Of a stretch of DNA of 64,000 nt, positions 1,552 to 11,314 are shown in pieces. The notes under the pieces were generated by a model, which saw only the letters and a list, made by a program, of their open reading frames with translations, had not been told where the DNA came from and did not search any database. Origin of the DNA: an uncultured Gammaproteobacteria bacterium (GTDB lineage: Bacteria > Pseudomonadota > Gammaproteobacteria > HK1); assembly GCA_958295465.1 (NCBI GenBank), contig OY282353.1, positions 1,302,001 to 1,366,000 of the forward strand. The letters run 5' to 3'. Position 1 is the stretch's first letter; each line of letters begins with the position of its first letter. The translations under genes and the position numbers were made by a program.

Positions 1552-1863
1552 CTAGAGATCCAGCACCAGCCGTTTCCCTTTGCAACGGGATACACAAGGC
1601 ATGAGCACCTTGCCGGAAGCTTTTTCACTCTCGTTGAGGTAGCAATCCCGGTGATCCGGTTCACCTTCGACGACTTCGGTCAGGCAAGTGCCGCAGATCC
1701 CCTGCTCGCAGGACGTGAGAGGTTCGAATCCGGCTTCGACCATCGCCTCGATAATCGTCTGATCTTCTCGCACCACGAAGCGGATTCCTGATTGCCGCAA
1801 TACCACCTCGAAGGAATCGTCTTCCAATTCGGGCGGAACAAGGTCGCCGGAAGAGTGTTTCAT
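1552..1863 (-). CDS. Stand-alone plant-type [2Fe-2S] ferredoxin, like the C-terminal domain of NdmD
   Basis: A 103-residue electron carrier expected to feed electrons to the Rieske proteins of the operon. Cluster ligands are C52, C57 and C60 in SCEQGICGTC and C90 in MPCVSRCKGK. The segment from C52 to the C-terminal LVLDL closely resembles, as I remember it, the C-terminal ferredoxin domain of NdmD, the reductase of bacterial caffeine N-demethylases. In NdmD and VanB-type reductases this domain is fused to an FMN/NADH module; here the protein begins just before the ferredoxin fold and no flavin domain precedes it. It lies 64 bp after the NdmA-like gene on the same strand, as the last gene of the overlapping operon. 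Confidence 0.9.
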   Translation of the reverse strand: MKHSSGDLVPPELEDDSFEVVLRQSGIRFVVREDQTIIEAMVEAGFEPLTSCEQGICGTCLTEVVEGEPDHRDCYLNESEKASGKVLMPCVSRCKGKRLVLDL

Positions 1864-1927: not shown

Positions 1928-2983
1928 CTACCTGCTCTCGATGACGTCCGTGTAAAGCGCCTTTTTGAACGCCTCCTTCCCGACTCGCGCGGCGGCGTCG
2001 AGCTCCCGCAACCACTTGCGGTACTGGTTGGAAACCTTGTCCGTGGGCAAGGACACCTCCCCGAGTGAAAGTCCGCCGGGCTGCGTCTCGACCACCGGCT
2101 GGTCTTCCGCAAGCACGATGCTCTGGAAATCGAGCGGTTGCTCATCCGGCAAATCCGGATCGGTGTGGGCGATGATCATGAAGTTTCGGCAACTTTCCCC
2201 GGACGCCGGGCTCGACGTCGTCCACAGCAGGAAAGGTTTGCCGTCGCGATAGAGCCGGATGTCCAGGTTGATGCTGAACGGCACAGCCGCTCGATAGTCC
2301 CAGGTCCCGAGCGGACTATCGGGTGGGAGCGAGTCCAGCATTTCCTTGCCGGGCTCCATGAAGAACCGCATTTCACCGTTCACCCTGTCGATCGGAACGA
2401 TCATGGGTTCGGAATAGGCCGGATGATAAAGCGTTCCCGGGTGCACGTAGGCGAAATGGGAAAAATCGGTGAAGTTTTCCCAGCGTCGCTCCGCGGAGCT
2501 CTCCCAGTCATAGGGTTCGGCGACAATGACGCGCTTGTATTCCGGGTTGTCCCATGCACCGCAATAGGGGATCGAGGTACAGTCCCAGGAGCTGTCGAGC
2601 CTTACCCATACGAGACCATATTCGACTTGGCACTCATAGGAAAGGGTCGACGCCTTCCTCGGGATCGGTGCGTTCGGACAAGCTGGAATTCGAACGCATT
2701 GACCGTCCGGTCCGTATTCCCATCCATGGTAGGGGCACCGGAGCACCCGGTGATCGATTACCTTGCCCGAGGAGAGTCTCGTATGGCGGTGCGCACAACG
2801 GTCCCGCATCGCCACGACCACGCCGTCGAGCCTGGCAATGACGATGCTTTCGTCAAGTAGCGTTCGGCCGATCGGCCCGTTCCCCTCGCCGTCGGACCCT
2901 TCGAGCTCTGCCAGCGTACAGGCCGGATGCCAGAAATGCCTCAGATAGCCTTGGTCAGCCACCAGCGGCCGATCGATTTCCAT
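1928..2983 (-). CDS. Rieske non-haem iron N-demethylase, NdmA/NdmB type
   Basis: A 351-residue oxygenase alpha subunit. The Rieske [2Fe-2S] ligands are C63 and H65 (RCAHRHTRLS) and C83 and H86 (CPYHGWEY). The mononuclear iron site follows in ENFTDFSHFAYVHPG with H176 and H181 and a later Asp in LAEDQPV. The opening YLRHFWHPACTL, the block ERRWENFTDFSHF and the C-terminal DKVSNQYRKWLREL closely match what I know of NdmA and NdmB, which remove N-methyl groups from caffeine and theobromine as formaldehyde. A strong site, GAGGAGAA, precedes ATG 2983. Context with a BMP importer and NdmC/D/E-like genes supports a methylated purine or similar N-methyl heterocycle as substrate, which is inference. 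Confidence 0.9.
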   Translation of the reverse strand: MEIDRPLVADQGYLRHFWHPACTLAELEGSDGEGNGPIGRTLLDESIVIARLDGVVVAMRDRCAHRHTRLSSGKVIDHRVLRCPYHGWEYGPDGQCVRIPACPNAPIPRKASTLSYECQVEYGLVWVRLDSSWDCTSIPYCGAWDNPEYKRVIVAEPYDWESSAERRWENFTDFSHFAYVHPGTLYHPAYSEPMIVPIDRVNGEMRFFMEPGKEMLDSLPPDSPLGTWDYRAAVPFSINLDIRLYRDGKPFLLWTTSSPASGESCRNFMIIAHTDPDLPDEQPLDFQSIVLAEDQPVVETQPGGLSLGEVSLPTDKVSNQYRKWLRELDAAARVGKEAFKKALYTDVIESR

Positions 2984-3191: not shown

Positions 3192-4271
3192 TCAGTTCGG
3201 CAGCGTCGTGTCGATACCTCCGACCAGAAAGTTCATTCCCTTGATCGCACCATCGTCGAGGGAAGTTCCGGCAGCGACGACTACCTTGCCCTCCCGATCG
3301 GTAATGGGGCCCTGGAACGGGTGGAACGCCCCGCTGCGAATTTCCTCCTGCTTCGCAAGAATGGCCTCGCGTTGCTCGTCGGCCAGATCCGGGCTGAGAC
3401 CGGCGACGCCGACCGCGTCGTCCTTGATGCCGGCGAAAGTGTCGTTCCCCGTGAACTTCCCATCCATGACTTCCTGCACTTTCGCAATGTAGATCGGGCG
3501 GAAGTCCACCTGGATCGCCGCGAGATGCCTGGTCGGGGCGAATCTGGTGTTGTCGGAGAGCGTGACCGTGACGTAGACACCCATCTCTTCGGCCGCCGCA
3601 ACGGCGGATGGTGTTCCGGGGAACAACGAGAAGATGACGTCGGCCCCCTGCGACACCAGAGATTCGGCTGAAGCCTTGTTTTTTGCCGGATCGAACCAGG
3701 AATTCATCCAGACGACTTTCACGTCACCCAGATTCGGATTCACGCTCTGCGCTCCCAGGACGTAGGAATTCATGATCCCGACGACCTCGGGCAGCGGAAA
3801 GGCTGCAATGATTCCGATCGTTCCGGACTCGGTGGCGTAACCGGCCGCCATTCCGGCCAGATAGGCGCCTTCGTAGTGACGTACCGCATAGGTCGCGAAG
3901 TTGTCATGCTGGAGGTAGCCGCCAGCGTGAATGACTGCGATATCGGGATGCCGCCTGGCCAGCTTCAGGCCGTCATTCATGTGGCCGAAGGAGCCGAGGA
4001 AGATGACGTCCGCACCCTGGGCGGCCATCTTGTTCATGACTCGGGTCGAGTCCGGCCCTTCACCGACACTGTCGACCGCCTGGATCTCGGCCTTGTCGCC
4101 GAAATGTTCGGCAACCGCCTGCCGTCCTCTGTCCAGCTCGTGATCCCATCCGACCTCGCCGATCGGATTCGGCACGATGAAGCCAATCTTGAGTTTCTCG
4201 GCCGCAAGAGCGGAGGATGACAATACGATCGACAACGCCATTCCGGTCAGTGTTTTGGCAAGTACGTTCAT
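3192..4271 (-). CDS. BMP-family ABC transporter substrate-binding protein
   Basis: Periplasmic ligand-binding protein of 359 residues. It begins with a signal peptide (MNVLAKTLTG then a hydrophobic run to SSSALA) followed by the BMP/Med-family opening KLKIGFIVPNPIGEVGWD. Other family blocks are GADVIFLGSFGHMND and a C-terminal GPITDREGK. The start at 4271 has GGGAGG about 9 bp upstream. Members of this family (PnrA, NupA, TmpC) bind purine nucleosides, and relatives occur in nucleobase uptake clusters. There is no lipobox cysteine. It lies directly after the two permease genes, completing an ATPase-permease-permease-binding protein importer in the demethylase operon. Confidence 0.93.
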   Translation of the reverse strand: MNVLAKTLTGMALSIVLSSSALAAEKLKIGFIVPNPIGEVGWDHELDRGRQAVAEHFGDKAEIQAVDSVGEGPDSTRVMNKMAAQGADVIFLGSFGHMNDGLKLARRHPDIAVIHAGGYLQHDNFATYAVRHYEGAYLAGMAAGYATESGTIGIIAAFPLPEVVGIMNSYVLGAQSVNPNLGDVKVVWMNSWFDPAKNKASAESLVSQGADVIFSLFPGTPSAVAAAEEMGVYVTVTLSDNTRFAPTRHLAAIQVDFRPIYIAKVQEVMDGKFTGNDTFAGIKDDAVGVAGLSPDLADEQREAILAKQEEIRSGAFHPFQGPITDREGKVVVAAGTSLDDGAIKGMNFLVGGIDTTLPN

Positions 4272-4306: not shown

Positions 4307-5227
4307 TCATCCGATGGGCCTGTAGTTTTCGCCCAACGAAACCGGTGCATTCAGCTTGATGCGAACCGCGTCGCGAGACACGACCGCCAGTACGATGATC
4401 GTCAACACATAAGGCATGCAGGTCATGAGCTGGGAAGAGATGGCGATGCCTCCGGACTGCACGGCCAGCTCGCCCAGCAGGGCGGCACCGAAAAAATAGG
4501 CGCCCATCATGACGCGCAACGGCCGCCAGGTTCCGAAGACCACCAGGGCCACCGCGATCCATCCTCGTCCGACGATCATGCCTTGCGACCAGACCGGAGT
4601 CAGGACCGTCGAGGCATAGGCCCCGGCCAGACCGGCCATGAAGCCTCCGAAGAGGATGGCACGGAATCGGATCTTCATGACCGAGAACCCCAGACTGTGC
4701 GCGATGTGCGGATTTTCGCCGACGACGCGCAGAATGAGGCCGGCGCGCGTTCGGTAGAAAAAAGCGATCAGGCCGACTCCGATGCCGATCGTCAGATAGA
4801 CCACGAGGTCCTGGTGAAACAGGATCGGGCCAAGGATCGGGATGTCGGACAGCAGCGGGACGTCCAGCTTGGAAAGCGGCGCCAGGGTGAAAGCCTCATA
4901 GGACCGTGCCAGCAGGGCGGAGAGACCAAGCCCGAGAATACCCGTGGCAAGGCCCGCCGCCACTTGATTCGCCATGAAGAACAGGACCAGCGTGGCAAAG
5001 ACGACGGAAAGAATCATCGCCGAAACGGCCCCGGCCGCGAATCCGAGCAGATGCGAACCCGTGTTGTAGGTCGCCATGAAGGCGATTGCGGCCGCAAGTG
5101 CCATCATGCCTTCCACACTCAAATTGAGGACGCCGGACTTCTCGACCGTCAACTCCCCGAGAGCGGCAAGGAGCAGAGGGGTTGCCGTCATGAATGCGCC
5201 GCCGAAGACGAAAACGAACGCATCCAT
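4307..5227 (-). CDS. BMP-type ABC importer permease, second subunit
   Basis: Inner-membrane permease of 306 residues with about eight to nine hydrophobic segments. It opens MDAFVFVFGGAFMTATPLLL and carries the family block EKSGVLNLSVEGMMAL and later LRVVGENPHIAHSLG, the cytoplasmic coupling region of nucleoside-type permeases (NupP/NupQ, YufQ class). The start codon at 5227 shares one base with the stop of the upstream permease (TGATG), implying translational coupling. An open frame continues upstream, but it overlaps the other permease and has no membrane character, so the shorter start is preferred. Confidence 0.92.
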   Translation of the reverse strand: MDAFVFVFGGAFMTATPLLLAALGELTVEKSGVLNLSVEGMMALAAAIAFMATYNTGSHLLGFAAGAVSAMILSVVFATLVLFFMANQVAAGLATGILGLGLSALLARSYEAFTLAPLSKLDVPLLSDIPILGPILFHQDLVVYLTIGIGVGLIAFFYRTRAGLILRVVGENPHIAHSLGFSVMKIRFRAILFGGFMAGLAGAYASTVLTPVWSQGMIVGRGWIAVALVVFGTWRPLRVMMGAYFFGAALLGELAVQSGGIAISSQLMTCMPYVLTIIVLAVVSRDAVRIKLNAPVSLGENYRPIG

Positions 5228-6330
5228 CACGTCCGCCTCCCCGGTGCGAGCGACGACCCGCGGCGAAATTCGTATCGAACGAAAACGTGGGCGGCGAGAT
5301 AGAAAACCAGGATGAAGCCCTGGAACACGACGGGCGCGGAGGTCGGAATATCGGCCGCCAGCATCGCACTGTCGCTGCCGATATAGATCACGGCCATGAA
5401 GAGCCCGGCCATGACGATACCGAGCGGATGCAGGCCGCCGAGAAACGCGACGATGATTGCCGCGAAGCCGTAGCCCGGCGACAGTATGCGTTGCAGCTTC
5501 CCGATCGGTCCGGCGATTTCGCCGACGCCGGCGAGCCCGGCCGCCGCGCCGCCGACGAGCAGGGAGATCCATATGGCGCGGCTGCCGGAAAAGCCCGCAT
5601 AACGTGCGGCATTGGGCGCAATACCCCCCACCAGAAGGCGAAAGCTGGAGAAGCTCTTCGAGACGAGGATCCAGGCGGCGAGGGAAACGAGAATCGTGAT
5701 CAGCACCGACAGGTTGGCCCGGACACCGGCGCCGCTGAACAGCGGCGGATAAAGCGCGGCGTCCGGGAAGGGCGCAGACTGCGGGAAGTTGAACCCCATC
5801 GGGTCGCGCAACGGCCCGGTGACCAGATAATACAGGAGCTGGAACGCAATCTGGTTGAGCATCAGGGTGACGATGATTTCATTCGCGTTGTACCGAGTTC
5901 TGAAGAACGCCGCGATACCCGCCCAAGCCAGACCCGCGGTGGCGCCGAGCAGGATCATGGCCGGAAGGATCAGGGCGGATTCGCTCCGCGACCAGGTGAT
6001 CGGGATCAGGCTCGCCGCAATCGCCCCGATCGTAAGCTGGCCCTCCGCGCCGATGTTCCAGATCCTGGCGCGAAATCCGATCGCCAAGCCCTGGGCGATC
6101 AGAATCAACGGGCTCGCCTTGATCAGCAGCTCGCCGATGTTGTAGGCGGACGTGAAGGGATCGACGAAGAAGTTGTAGAGAACGACCGAAGGCGAGCTGC
6201 CCAACGCCGTGAAGAGGATGACGCTGCAGAGAATCGTCAGCCCGATCGTGACCAGCGGAACCGCCGCCAATGCTTTGACGGCCGGCTGTTCCCGCGGAAC
6301 CATCCGCCAAGCGGGCATCGGGGTCATCAT
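5227..6330 (-). CDS. BMP-type ABC importer permease, first subunit
   Basis: Inner-membrane permease of 367 residues. After a short cytoplasmic N-terminus it has repeated hydrophobic helices, the family block FRARIWNIGAEGQL, TRYNANEIIVTLMLNQIA, and the coupling segment GIAPNAARYAGFSG. This matches the YufP/NupP class that pairs with the smaller permease encoded next. Its ATG overlaps the stop of the ATPase gene (ATGA) and its own stop overlaps the next start, so three importer genes are chained by overlaps. Expected role is uptake of a purine-like compound across the inner membrane. Confidence 0.92.
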   Translation of the reverse strand: MMTPMPAWRMVPREQPAVKALAAVPLVTIGLTILCSVILFTALGSSPSVVLYNFFVDPFTSAYNIGELLIKASPLILIAQGLAIGFRARIWNIGAEGQLTIGAIAASLIPITWSRSESALILPAMILLGATAGLAWAGIAAFFRTRYNANEIIVTLMLNQIAFQLLYYLVTGPLRDPMGFNFPQSAPFPDAALYPPLFSGAGVRANLSVLITILVSLAAWILVSKSFSSFRLLVGGIAPNAARYAGFSGSRAIWISLLVGGAAAGLAGVGEIAGPIGKLQRILSPGYGFAAIIVAFLGGLHPLGIVMAGLFMAVIYIGSDSAMLAADIPTSAPVVFQGFILVFYLAAHVFVRYEFRRGSSLAPGRRT

Positions 6331-7907
6331 GCGGTCTGCCGGGGGGCCGCCGCGTCGAAATGGCCGATCATCATCTGGCCCACCTGTTCGGGCCGGACGC
6401 TTGTCGTCGCGACCGGGACCGACATTCGGCCTTCATACATTACGGCCATGCGGTCGGAGATTTCGAACAGTTCCTCCAACTCTTCGGAGATCACTACGAT
6501 GGCGTTGCCGGCGTCGCGCAGATCGACCAGGCGCTGGCGCACCAGTGCAGCGGCGCCGACGTCGATCCCCCAGGTCGGCTGCGAAACAACGAACGTCGTC
6601 GGCTCGAGCAACAACTCGCGCCCGACGATGAATTTCTGCAAATTGCCCCCCGAAAGGCTGGTGGCCGGCGCACGGTGGCCGGCGCAGCGTACATCCATTT
6701 CATCAATGCATCGCTCGGCAAACCGGTCACGCTGCCGGCGGCGAATGAATCCTCTCCTGACCATGCCTTTGCGGTGGCCGGTGAGCAGTACGTTCTGGCT
6801 GAGCGAGAGATCCGGCACCGCGCCCCGTCCGATACGTTCCTCGGGCACGAAGGCGAGCCCGCGTGCTCTTCGATCTTCGGCGCCCATGCTCCCGATCGGC
6901 TTGTCGAAAAGCACGATCCTGCCGCTCTCTTCGGCCGGGAGGGTCTCTTCTCCCGACAGCAGCCTCGCGAGCGCGAACTGGCCGTTGCCCGATACGCCGG
7001 CGATGCCGAAGACCTCGCCGGCCCGGACCTCGAACGAGATCTGTTTCAGATCGACGGAATGGGGATCGGGGTCGTTGTAGGAGAGATCCGCCACTCGCAA
7101 GTGAACCCTGCCGGACCGCGATGCCCGCTTGTGCCGGGCATGAGGGATTTCGCGGCCGATCATCATTCTGGCGAGCTCGGAGGCGGACGTCCGGGCAGGG
7201 TCCACAGTACCCCTCACACGCCCCTGCCGCAGGATCGTCGCCCGATGGCAGATCTCCCGTATCTCTTCCAGCTTGTGACTGATGTACAGGATTGCAATAC
7301 CTCGTTCCGCCAATCTCCTGAGCGTCGCGAAAAGCTGCCTGACGTACGGCAGTGGCAGGACGGAGGTGGGTTCATCCAGAATGAGAAGCTCCGGCTCCTG
7401 CAACAGGCAGCGGATGATCTCCACCCGCTGTCGTTCGCCGACCGAGAGATTGTGGACGAGTGCATCGGGATTGATCGGCAGCCCGAACTCTTCGCTCATC
7501 CGCCGAATCCGCCCGGAAAGATCCTGCAACGTCCCCGGAACCGTCAATGAAATGTTCTCGGTGATCGATACCGTTTCGAACAGCGAGAAATGCTGGAACA
7601 CCATTCCGATCCCCAACGAGCGCGCCGTGGCCGGGTTCTCCATGGACACCGGCTGCCCTTTCCAGCGGATCTCGCCGCCGTCCGGCGTGGCTACGCCGAA
7701 GATGAGCTTCATCAGAGTCGACTTGCCAGCTCCGTTTTCCCCCAGGATCGCATGAATTTCCCCAGGCCGAACCTGCAAGTCGATACCGTCATTCGCTACT
7801 ACCGCCGGATAGCACTTGGTGATGCCGATCATTTCCAGCAGGGCCGGCGAGCAGGTTCGTTCCGCATCCCCCACGGCGTCGTTGCGGGGCTTCGCGGGAT
7901 CGATCAT
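6327..7907 (-). CDS. BMP-type ABC importer ATPase with two nucleotide-binding domains
   Basis: A 526-residue tandem ATPase of the RbsA/NupO architecture. Domain 1 has Walker A GENGAGKST, signature LSVGERQRVEI and Walker B LLILDEPTSVL. Domain 2 has a degenerate Walker A (GVSGNGQFALAR), signature LSGGNLQKFIVGREL and an altered Walker B (TFVVSQPTWGIDVG), typical for the second half of this class. ATG 7907 overlaps the stop of the GST-like gene (ATGA). A longer frame runs further upstream but crosses the GST-like gene and shows no homologous character. It powers import by the two downstream permeases. Confidence 0.93.
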   Translation of the reverse strand: MIDPAKPRNDAVGDAERTCSPALLEMIGITKCYPAVVANDGIDLQVRPGEIHAILGENGAGKSTLMKLIFGVATPDGGEIRWKGQPVSMENPATARSLGIGMVFQHFSLFETVSITENISLTVPGTLQDLSGRIRRMSEEFGLPINPDALVHNLSVGERQRVEIIRCLLQEPELLILDEPTSVLPLPYVRQLFATLRRLAERGIAILYISHKLEEIREICHRATILRQGRVRGTVDPARTSASELARMMIGREIPHARHKRASRSGRVHLRVADLSYNDPDPHSVDLKQISFEVRAGEVFGIAGVSGNGQFALARLLSGEETLPAEESGRIVLFDKPIGSMGAEDRRARGLAFVPEERIGRGAVPDLSLSQNVLLTGHRKGMVRRGFIRRRQRDRFAERCIDEMDVRCAGHRAPATSLSGGNLQKFIVGRELLLEPTTFVVSQPTWGIDVGAAALVRQRLVDLRDAGNAIVVISEELEELFEISDRMAVMYEGRMSVPVATTSVRPEQVGQMMIGHFDAAAPRQTA

Positions 7908-8533
7908 CGTCTGATGTGGTCGATTCCCGGCATGGTGAAGAATCCGGGAAGGTTCGTGAACCGCCGGAGCCATCTCCGGATTGCGGGCCAGGGTGAAAGG
8001 TCGATCCCACCGTCGTGGGCCAGCGCCGTGTAGGGAAAGCACGCAATATCCGCGATTGTCGGCGCAGGTCCGGCGATCCATTCATGGCCGCCGAACTCCC
8101 GATCCGTCAGGTGGTCCTCCAACACCCGAAAGACACTTCTCGCTCCGGCGCGAGCCGCCCCGACGTCCAGATCGTAGCCCAGCACGTCGTGCATCCGCGC
8201 CGCGGACGACGTGGCGGTTATCCGGTCCGCGAACACCAGCCACATCGTCACCTCGCCGACGAGTCGTGGATCGCCGGAGGGCCACCAGCGCCCGTGTCCG
8301 TCATACTTGTTCGCCAGATAAAGCAGGATGGCTTGTGCGTCACGAATGACCAGGCCATCGTCCTCCAATACGGGTATCTGACCAAGCGGATTGATTCCAA
8401 GGAAGGCGGCGCTCTTGTGCTCCCGGCCCGGATAAAAATCGACCGCGACGATCTCGCATTCGATCTCGAGGAACCTCACCAGCAACCGGATCTTGTAGCA
8501 GTTGCCGGAAAGAACGTAGTCGTAAAGCTTCAT
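7904..8533 (-). CDS. Glutathione S-transferase-like protein (NdmE-like)
   Basis: A 209-residue GST-fold protein opening MKLYDYVLSGNCYKIRLL, with the thioredoxin-like domain containing NPLGQIPVLEDDG and DAQAILLYLANKY, and a C-terminal helical domain with GPAPTIADIACFPY. An earlier GTG at 8557 would add eight residues and overlap the upstream gene, but family proteins start at MKLYD. In Pseudomonas putida CBB5, NdmE is a GST homologue that is required structurally in the NdmC-NdmD-NdmE complex. Here it sits directly after the NdmC-like gene, which makes the same scaffold role likely, though catalytic GST activity cannot be excluded. Confidence 0.85.
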   Translation of the reverse strand: MKLYDYVLSGNCYKIRLLVRFLEIECEIVAVDFYPGREHKSAAFLGINPLGQIPVLEDDGLVIRDAQAILLYLANKYDGHGRWWPSGDPRLVGEVTMWLVFADRITATSSAARMHDVLGYDLDVGAARAGARSVFRVLEDHLTDREFGGHEWIAGPAPTIADIACFPYTALAHDGGIDLSPWPAIRRWLRRFTNLPGFFTMPGIDHIRR

Positions 8534-8546
8534 GGGCGATTCCGGC

Positions 8547-9404
8547 TCATGCGGCACGGATTGCCGGGAGCGCGCCGTAGGTCAGACCCTTCTTCCTGAG
8601 CCATCGGCGATAAGCGATGGATGACGCATCGGCGCGGGTCGGAGTTTCGGATCCAGGGACAAGGGGAAGCAGCCGCGGAACCTGGTTTTCCAGGATGAAC
8701 CTGTCCTGAAGAAATATGGTCTGCTGGAAATGCAGAAGATCGGTATCGGAGTTGTCTTCGTCGAATACCAGCACGAAGGAATGAACGTCGCTCAGGTCTT
8801 CCTCCACCGGTTGAATGAACAAACCGATCAGATCCCAGGCGTCATCCCTGATCGGGCAGGTCTTGTACAGAATGGTCGAGAACGGATGAGGCACCCGGTA
8901 CTTGTAATGGGTCACCTGCCCACTCTCGGCGGTGGCAGCGGCCCGAGGCTGATAGAATTTGCAGCTTGTCGCCCAAAGCTCGTCCTCGTTCCGATCCGGC
9001 TCGACCTCGTATTGTTCGACGGTCGCCTGCTCCTCGACACCGAGAATACCGGCGTGGACAAAGGGGAAATGCGCCAGATCGAGAAAGTTCTCTACTGCGC
9101 GCAAGCCGGAACAACGTACCGATACGCATCCGGCAGTCACCAGCCGCCTGCCTTTCTCCTCGAACTCCGGTATGTCATACAGCGGCCGGGGATCGTCATG
9201 AAGCGTGGTCCATACGTGACCATAGCGTTCTTGCGCTTTCAGCGGTGCCCCATCGGCCTTCAGTCTGATCGACAGCGCTTCGGCTCTGCGCTCGGCGACG
9301 ACGTCGTGCCCGAGCAGGCGCGTGCTCCGGCTGCCGCCATCCGGCACGTCCTCCAGCCGGCCTATCGCATACCAATGTGAGCGCGTAAATTCATCCAGGG
9401 CCAT
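8547..9404 (-). CDS. Rieske oxygenase catalytic subunit lacking the Rieske domain (NdmC-like)
   Basis: A 285-residue protein with the mononuclear iron half of a Rieske oxygenase. ENFLDLAHFPFVHAG supplies H112 and H117, and FLQDRFILENQ supplies the late acidic ligand. After the normal N-terminus (SHWYAIGRLEDVP, RLLGHDVVAERR) the two Cys-X-His Rieske motifs are absent: residues run from about 50 (ADGAPLKAQERYGHVW) straight into the region that normally follows the cluster. This deletion is the hallmark of NdmC, the 7-methylxanthine N7-demethylase subunit, which borrows its Rieske cluster from NdmD. The start at 9404 overlaps the end of the Rieske-only gene by 14 bp, coupling the two halves. Confidence 0.88.
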   Translation of the reverse strand: MALDEFTRSHWYAIGRLEDVPDGGSRSTRLLGHDVVAERRAEALSIRLKADGAPLKAQERYGHVWTTLHDDPRPLYDIPEFEEKGRRLVTAGCVSVRCSGLRAVENFLDLAHFPFVHAGILGVEEQATVEQYEVEPDRNEDELWATSCKFYQPRAAATAESGQVTHYKYRVPHPFSTILYKTCPIRDDAWDLIGLFIQPVEEDLSDVHSFVLVFDEDNSDTDLLHFQQTIFLQDRFILENQVPRLLPLVPGSETPTRADASSIAYRRWLRKKGLTYGALPAIRAA

Positions 9405-10188
9405 GATCTCGTTCCAGGATGTGCGGCAGGCGGGCGCGTGGCACGCCAAGCGTGCGGATGCCGGCCCTCCGGTTCTCGACAAGGGTGCGGACTTCCTTCA
9501 ACCAGTCACTGACATGCCTCAGCGCTTCTCCGTGCTTGCCGGCGGCGCCTCTCGGCCGAACCGATACATGCAGCATGGTCTGTGTGCCGGAGACCGGTTG
9601 TCCGGCGCAAAGCACTGCCTCGAACAAATGGGAGTCGTGTAATTCGATTCGATGGACTCCATCTCCGTTCAGGCTTGGAGCGCAGGCAATGCGGTTGATT
9701 TCACCGTGTTGATCAGGGTGGGAGAGAATGAATCTGCCCGAAGCGAAATGGGAATCGACCTCTTCACGTGGCCGGTCGATGGCGATCGAGCGGCAGCCGA
9801 TCCAGTCGCCGGGGAAACTCGGCGCTTCCATGCCGATGCTCCCGGACGCCGCCCAGATGATCCCGGCATGTTCCGCACGGGCATACTGTCCGATCCTGAC
9901 GGCCTTGGGCGGCGCGAGGTCCGGACGCGCGGGTATCAGGGTGCAGGCCCCTTCCCCATCGTAAGTCCAGCCGTGATAACAACAAGTCAGCCGATCGCCA
10001 CGGACGAAGCCATATGAAAGGCGCATGCCACGATGGGGACACCGGTTTTCCCAGACACGCACCTGCCGATCCCGTCCGCGCCAGATGACCAGGTCATGGT
10101 CGCCGACCAAGGCCCTGCAGGCTGTTCCGGGCGACACGGCCGCGGATAGTCCGACGGCCGTCCAACTCGACAGAGACGCCTCTTCCAC
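9391..10188 (-). CDS. Rieske-domain-only protein, like the N-terminal part of NdmD
   Basis: A 265-residue protein with Rieske ligands C50 and H52 (ENRCPHRGMRLSYG) and C70 and H72 (CCYHGWTYDGEG). The remaining 150 residues are a degenerate oxygenase-like half without the iron-binding His-His pair. As I recall it, this is the layout of NdmD residues 1 to about 265, before its FMN/NADH module; here the protein ends where the reductase would begin. GTG 10188 is preferred because GGGAGG lies 9 bp upstream; a GTG at 10218 is also open. It is first in the operon and probably supplies the cluster missing from the overlapping downstream protein. Confidence 0.85.
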   Translation of the reverse strand: MEEASLSSWTAVGLSAAVSPGTACRALVGDHDLVIWRGRDRQVRVWENRCPHRGMRLSYGFVRGDRLTCCYHGWTYDGEGACTLIPARPDLAPPKAVRIGQYARAEHAGIIWAASGSIGMEAPSFPGDWIGCRSIAIDRPREEVDSHFASGRFILSHPDQHGEINRIACAPSLNGDGVHRIELHDSHLFEAVLCAGQPVSGTQTMLHVSVRPRGAAGKHGEALRHVSDWLKEVRTLVENRRAGIRTLGVPRARLPHILERDHGPG

Positions 10189-10378: not shown

Positions 10379-11314
10379 ATGCTGACCGACTATGAGCTGA
10401 ACGACATCAGGCGTTTCATACAAATTGCGCGCTCCGGAAGTCTGACCCGGGCCGCGGCCGAGAACAATATTCCCAAAGCCACGCTGAGCCACAATCTCCG
10501 GCGCCTCGAAGACGCGCTCAACGTGGAACTGTTCATTCGCAAGGCGAGGGGGCTCGTGCTGACCGATGCCGGCAGAGTCTATCTGGAACACTGCACGCGG
10601 ATCCTCGCCACCTGCGAGATGGCCGCGAGCGCCGCCCAGTGCGCGCACTCATCCATCAGCGGCAAAGTCCGGATGGTGGCGAGCGCCGAGTTCGGCACCA
10701 GCATACTCGGTGCCGCGGTCCTCCATATTGCGAATACTCATCCCGGAATCGATTTTGAAGCGCACATGTACCCGGGCGATGCGCTGCTCCTCCGGCAGAT
10801 CGATTTCGACTGCATGATCTACGTCGGCACCCCACCCGACTCCGACCTCGTCTGCCGCAAGATGGGAACCGTTTCCTACATGCTGTACGCCAGTCCGGGT
10901 TTTTGCGAAAGATTCGGAATGCCGGAAACCGTAGACCAGATTCGGGATCTGCCAGGGGTGCTCTATTCGAGAGACAACATGCCCGAACAATGGAAGCTGT
11001 CGGACGGCTCGAAGGAAATCGTTATCCAATACCAACCCCGGTTCAGCGTTCACGACTATTGGATGGCAAAATATTTCACGGTTGCCGGATCGGCGATCGC
11101 CTATATGCCGGATTTCTTCACACTCTACGAGGTCGAGGTCGGTGCTCTCCTGAATGTGCTTCCCGGTTACCGGTCGGAGGACATCGACGTTTATGCGCTT
11201 TACCCCTCCTACCGGCACCACAATCCCAGAATCATGATGGTCGTGGAAGCGCTTTGTGAACATTTCGATGATTTCATCCGCTACCCTGGTTATTCCCTGA
11301 TCTCGAACGTCTGA
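10379..11314 (+). CDS. LysR-family transcriptional regulator
   Basis: A 311-residue regulator. The N-terminal winged helix-turn-helix reads LNDIRRFIQIARSGSLTRAA followed by PKATLSHNLRRLEDALNVEL, then FIRKARGLVLTDAGRVYL, the normal LysR order. The remaining residues (about 90-300) form the periplasmic-binding-like effector domain. A GAGGA-type ribosome site lies about ten bases before ATG 10379. It is transcribed away from the N-demethylase/importer operon, and LysR proteins in this position usually activate the divergent genes in response to the pathway substrate or an intermediate. The effector itself is unknown. Confidence 0.93.
   Translation: MLTDYELNDIRRFIQIARSGSLTRAAAENNIPKATLSHNLRRLEDALNVELFIRKARGLVLTDAGRVYLEHCTRILATCEMAASAAQCAHSSISGKVRMVASAEFGTSILGAAVLHIANTHPGIDFEAHMYPGDALLLRQIDFDCMIYVGTPPDSDLVCRKMGTVSYMLYASPGFCERFGMPETVDQIRDLPGVLYSRDNMPEQWKLSDGSKEIVIQYQPRFSVHDYWMAKYFTVAGSAIAYMPDFFTLYEVEVGALLNVLPGYRSEDIDVYALYPSYRHHNPRIMMVVEALCEHFDDFIRYPGYSLISNV

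Follow-up and report, generated by a model that had tools for sequence, protein, structure and literature searches.

A putative three-gene Rieske N-demethylase with its two metal sites on separate proteins

The window, meaning the whole 64-kb stretch of DNA analysed, holds a minus-strand cluster that encodes the candidate parts of a split Rieske oxygenase, an importer, a second and complete oxygenase and a small ferredoxin, together with a divergent regulator gene. The features are as follows.

10379..11314, plus strand: divergent LysR-type regulator (Pfam HTH_1 and LysR_substrate)
9391..10188, minus strand: stand-alone Rieske subunit P0003, GTG start at 10188, 265 aa
8547..9404, minus strand: catalytic-only subunit P0002, NdmC-like, ATG start, 285 aa
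7904..8533, minus strand: GST-like subunit P0001, NdmE-like, with the ATG common to its homologues; a GTG alternative would extend it to 8557
6327..7907, minus strand: ABC importer ATPase (Pfam ABC_tran in two stretches), ATG at 7907; the longest ORF reaches 8081
5227..6330, minus strand: ABC importer permease 1 (Pfam BPD_transp_2)
4307..5230, minus strand: ABC importer permease 2 (Pfam BPD_transp_2), probable start; the longest ORF reaches 5572
3192..4268, minus strand: BMP/PnrA-like substrate-binding protein (Pfam Bmp, 140 bits), approximate start; the longest ATG ORF reaches 4562
1928..2983, minus strand: complete NdmB-like Rieske oxygenase (best PDB match NdmB), which accompanies the split enzyme and is not part of it
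1552..1863, minus strand: stand-alone plant-type [2Fe-2S] ferredoxin P0004 (Pfam Fer2), 103 aa

The P0003 and P0002 genes share 14 bp. A 4-bp overlap (ATGA at 7904-7907) joins the GST gene to the ABC-ATPase gene, and another of the same length joins the ABC-ATPase gene to that of permease 1. By its position, the LysR-type gene at 10379..11314 is probably the regulator of the cluster. The original prediction placed a purine-type importer next to the enzyme genes; the importer is of the BMP type by Pfam, and the same cluster holds the NdmB-like oxygenase and an NdmD-type ferredoxin. Phage and PADLOC searches returned nothing relevant.

The sole Pfam match of P0002 is VanA_C, and the Pfam search found no Rieske model in it. 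P0002 retains ENFLDLAHFPFVH and CxH...CxxH is absent, bearing out the expectation that the protein at 8547-9404 keeps the mononuclear-iron site and has lost the Rieske motifs. Residues D109, H112, H117 and D234 are invariant in 34 sequences. P0002 is 47.9% identical over 282 aa to NdmC of Pseudomonas putida plasmid pTmex-577K (L129), the reference used here, which carries an ndmABCDE-like set with formaldehyde genes, the ndm names being given by homology and layout. The AlphaFold2 model of P0002 (pLDDT 86.1) has TM 0.84 against GxtA/SxtT, and HHalign pairs the first 46 residues of P0002 with the beginning of the P0003 Rieske domain (probability 96%, E 2.4e-9). This superposition and the N-terminal match argue that P0002 is a whole oxygenase subunit minus its cluster-binding part.

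The overlapping upstream gene encodes P0003, for which Pfam Rieske is the only family matched (76.6 bits); P0003 carries CPHRG...CCYHGW, and NxxDxxHxxxxH is absent. It had been described as a Rieske domain with no iron site. The Rieske site and the missing iron site both stand, but the predicted fold is that of a whole subunit without the iron site, not of a bare domain. In the AlphaFold2 model (pLDDT 87.5), a Rieske [2Fe-2S] domain is followed by a small helix-grip-like domain without iron ligands, where the protein ends. Residues 1-242 superpose on residues 2-289 of SxtT (Z 21.2, 238 residues, rmsd 3.4), so P0003 looks like an entire oxygenase subunit that lacks its iron-binding part. Sequence profiles show no link between the C-terminal domain of P0003 and the catalytic domain (HHalign probability 6%); it is the predicted structure that suggests their kinship. 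Residues 42-248 of P0003 align with residues 32-239 of an NdmD-like protein of S. meliloti (31%), and the reference-plasmid NdmD can be aligned with it through its N-terminal part too; by these alignments, P0003 is NdmD without its reductase. SxtT and GxtA (PDB 6wn3 and 6wnd) provide the best PDB sequence match of both P0002 and P0003 and are among the best fold matches. Both metal sites lie on one chain in SxtT and GxtA, whereas P0002 and P0003 keep one site each. On the models, the two proteins are reduced versions of a single oxygenase subunit, each retaining the half that the other has lost.

The GST-like gene that was expected to come next is present: P0001 matches GST models only (Pfam GST_N and GST_C). 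It is 53% identical to NdmE of P. putida pTmex-577K, and its gene is adjacent. The NdmCDE complex is ~360 kDa with a reported 3:3:3 composition, in which NdmC is insoluble without its partners and NdmE is structural (PMC10380055). A structural role for P0001 would carry over from NdmE by homology. The assignment of the three proteins as NdmC/NdmD/NdmE-like holds up in sequence comparison, which places P0002 nearest the NdmC type, P0001 with NdmE and P0003 with the N-terminal part of NdmD.

The ndm cluster of P. putida CBB5 holds the same ndmABCDE parts and formaldehyde genes; its NdmCDE, a methylxanthine N7-demethylase, was called the first reported Rieske domain split from its oxygenase and fused to a reductase, and 18 organisms were reported to hold homologous clusters whose function was unknown (PMC4408171). 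The CBB5 protein NdmD joins the Rieske part to an FMN/NADH/ferredoxin reductase (PMC4408171; PMC10380055). The NdmCDE complex has yet to be solved structurally (PMC13237722). Like NdmCDE, the window set pairs a Rieske-less catalytic subunit with a Rieske domain on another protein and a GST-like partner. Unlike in NdmCDE, the Rieske protein is unfused, the ferredoxin has a separate gene and no full reductase lies nearby. The window has the NdmC-like catalytic protein and the NdmE-like GST, but not the NdmD-type Rieske-reductase fusion. Variovorax paradoxus VAI-C (L132) resembles the window in having a stand-alone Rieske protein, a catalytic subunit, a GST and a BMP protein gene, but its catalytic subunit is fused to a reductase while the Rieske protein is separate (L132:11989-13803), the reverse of the NdmD fusion. 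The two fusions, Rieske-reductase in NdmD and catalytic-reductase in Variovorax, argue that the parts form one complex. The literature searched, which comprised papers available without subscription, records the Rieske-reductase fusion only, and no paper describing the stand-alone Rieske layout was found there.

A stand-alone Rieske subunit had been thought unusual, yet it proves to be common. A scan of named genomes gave at least 566 relatives; the analysis used the best 80 loci among them. The Rieske gene is separate in 79 of these 80, a fraction that describes the top-scoring matches and does not hold for the whole family, in which fused versions occur further out; the remaining locus ends at a contig edge. 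Several further genomes also hold the Rieske/catalytic pair as separate genes, and the split layout is common in Alphaproteobacteria. Of the 79 pairs, 67 sit side by side on one strand; another 5 diverge within 500 bp, and in the last 7 further genes, mostly an importer, lie in between. An overlap of exactly 4 bp joins 60 of the 67 adjacent same-strand pairs, and a GST gene is present in 78 of the 80 best loci. NxxDxxHxxxxH is kept in 101 of 102 catalytic proteins, and a complete CxH...CxxH in 97 of 100 Rieske proteins. Like the pair in the window, every surveyed relative in the family has its Rieske and mononuclear iron sites on separate chains. The genome of the window contains a second copy of the set in the order catalytic, Rieske, GST, starting at C1:911966, with the same order in family relatives.

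This conservation bears on the notion that the pair stems from one normal oxygenase through decay or misassembly, for which it could be said that P0002 and P0003 are both truncated forms of one fold. Across many families, the genes are separate in 79 of the 80 best loci; ligands and start-stop coupling are preserved, and each protein has its own N-terminal strands, leaving this explanation a negligible chance. A frameshifted single oxygenase was considered and rejected: P0002 and P0003 total 550 aa against ~350 for a complete oxygenase, and each begins with N-terminal strands of its own. A sequencing error that splits one oxygenase was rejected on the separateness of the pair in those loci and the retained ligands and coupling; the two genes are indeed two.

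Gene arrangement varies among the relatives. In a Bosea/Rhizobium branch (L068, L091, L107, L112, L124, L104, L113), the Rieske and GST genes diverge from the catalytic gene, and at some of these loci an importer sits between. This divergent arrangement suggests that Rieske and GST are the tighter pair in that branch. The Rieske subunit of the second copy (L139:1371-2426) is 351 aa long, its two domains being set apart by a long insert of low complexity in which Gly, Ala, Glu and Asn abound; the Rieske subunit of G005 has the same low-complexity insert.

Separate Rieske proteins in an electron path are also familiar from the carbazole CarAc and toluene T4moC systems. In the carbazole type, the Rieske ferredoxin passes electrons to an oxygenase with a Rieske domain of its own. 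P0003 might likewise be a Rieske ferredoxin serving mainly the oxygenase at 1928-2983, with P0002 separate or inactive; such stand-alone ferredoxins are known from three-component systems, and a full oxygenase is present in the same cluster. Size and fold tell against it: CarAc and T4moC are ~110 aa, while P0003 has 265 aa, a second domain and a predicted oxygenase-like fold over residues 1-242, making it too large for a single-domain Rieske ferredoxin. In most of the best 80 loci, no full NdmA/B-like oxygenase accompanies the Rieske-catalytic pair, and the iron ligands are kept in nearly all catalytic proteins (101/102), both of which make a ferredoxin role of this kind very unlikely. The preferred reading remains that P0003 and P0002 are partners in one enzyme.

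In trees, the catalytic and Rieske proteins of the window are each sister to the same Komagataeibacter/Paracoccus/Pseudooceanicola group (99/97 and 95/95). Three fused NdmD sequences fall inside one clade shared with stand-alone forms, among further stand-alone forms, and the Rieske tree needs two changes of state between fused and stand-alone, their direction being unproven. Some long branches meet in the trees, making the place of the Variovorax catalytic protein unsure. One scenario is a widespread class of Rieske oxygenases in which Rieske-only and iron-only subunits arose by duplication and reciprocal loss and are joined by a GST-like holder, with the stand-alone form older and the NdmD fusion derived; the odds for this history look about even.

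In Rieske oxygenases, electrons leave the Rieske cluster of one subunit for the iron in the subunit next to it. In normal Rieske oxygenases, the cluster lies ~12 A from the iron of the next subunit (PMC12445004). For the supply of electrons to P0003, the candidate in the cluster is P0004, which finds its closest PDB match in the ferredoxin domain of NdmD (6icm_D, E 1.4e-24) and is 65% identical to residues 211-315, the C-terminal end, of the Komagataeibacter reductase. Judged by these matches, P0004 is the counterpart of the C-terminal domain of NdmD. The genes of the cluster include no full reductase. A genome search with the Komagataeibacter reductase gave ferredoxin-domain matches only and no full NdmD-type reductase, and a search of the genome with PF00175 (FNR NAD-binding) found one protein, away from the cluster; in the flank beyond the window start, the analysis covered the open reading frames. 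The same genome has 26 Rieske-family matches against the single PF00175 match, and a further short ferredoxin-like frame adjoins an oxygenase at C1:5008632.

The complete oxygenase at 1928-2983 matches NdmB best in the PDB (415 bits) and NdmA at 380-385 bits. It is about half identical to homologues of both NdmB and NdmA (PDB 6icl and 6ick; N3- and N1-demethylases) and is a one-chain companion that lies outside the split enzyme. It is 71.5% identical to a Komagataeibacter plasmid homologue. It carries Gln and Leu at both sites altered in the NdmA QL mutant, with the motif DFQSIVLAED aligning with AFQKRVLDED of NdmB and AFNDLVFAED of NdmA; the two mutations are said to switch specificity from N1 to N3 (PMC8055839).

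The gene context points to purines as the substrate, and the amidohydrolase of the rhizobial operons described below adds to this. BMP importers accompany both of the genome's own copies of the split set, and an adenosine-deaminase gene lies beside the second copy. From the genes present, one may reasonably guess at a theobromine or 7-methylxanthine route. The same architecture could instead serve other chemistry or another substrate, hydroxylating or dealkylating a purine or N-heterocycle that is not a methylxanthine, such as a methylguanine, a C8 position or a modified nucleobase. Close rhizobial relatives have an amidohydrolase in their operons, nearest 8-oxoguanine deaminase though below its cut-off, and lack an NdmA/NdmB-like partner, suggesting that the family may act on several substrates; HpxD, which is distantly related, bears the annotation of a xanthine hydroxylase subunit. 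The window copy, however, groups with a clade whose clusters hold NdmA- and NdmB-like oxygenases, and its own cluster contains an NdmB-like partner with the NdmB residue pair. A different substrate is accordingly a real possibility for this copy, though one with the odds against it. A methylated purine is the favoured substrate, and the three-gene enzyme probably strips methyl groups from caffeine-like purines.

Taken as a whole, the locus would encode an NdmCDE-type oxygenase with its NdmD equivalent dismantled, in which P0002 is the catalytic subunit, P0003 the Rieske subunit and P0001 the holder, and the substrate is most likely a methylated purine; we place the probability of this reading at roughly 0.75. 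What the analysis shows are the domains, homology, conservation, gene coupling and predicted folds, from which we infer the complex, the electron path and the substrate. The BMP-type importer would supply an N-methylpurine, which P0002 would bind while activating O2 at its mononuclear iron. Electrons would reach P0003, probably via P0004 and an NADH reductase encoded elsewhere, and its Rieske cluster would pass them across the subunit border to the P0002 iron, with P0001 holding the two together. The NdmB-like oxygenase might act in the same pathway, and the products would be formaldehyde and a demethylated purine.

With the two metal sites on different proteins, donor and acceptor can be mutated, swapped and titrated one at a time, and the short stand-alone subunits may lend themselves better to crystallisation or imaging. 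The layout also suggests that, in rhizobia and relatives, many proteins with no annotation beyond 'Rieske 2Fe-2S protein' and 'aromatic ring-hydroxylating dioxygenase subunit alpha' belong together as the halves of a single enzyme.

A literature search for caffeine N-demethylases of Komagataeibacter, or for this operon in rhizobia, found no paper. The conjugative plasmid pKNA08 of Komagataeibacter nataicola, from kombucha, encodes an NdmB-like (Gln/Leu) and an NdmA-like (Asn/Phe) oxygenase (L126:6932-18997), and further carries a reductase and two catalytic/Rieske/GST sets of the split kind; together these may give a bacterium that ferments tea a full pathway for caffeine. A near-identical cluster is found in Komagataeibacter, Paracoccus versutus and Pseudooceanicola (L126, L046, L047), and the very short tree branches among the three suggest recent horizontal transfer. 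Each of these clusters has a second Rieske-like protein without the full cluster motif (L126:8811-9344, L046:5770-6342, L047:5772-6344), in which GVYHGW replaces CxYHGW in the case of L126; these proteins may hold no Rieske cluster, and the partner catalytic protein keeps its iron ligands. On a plasmid of P. putida 1290, an NdmD-like gene is annotated as three pieces (L130:14865-16620) and looks broken or frameshifted.
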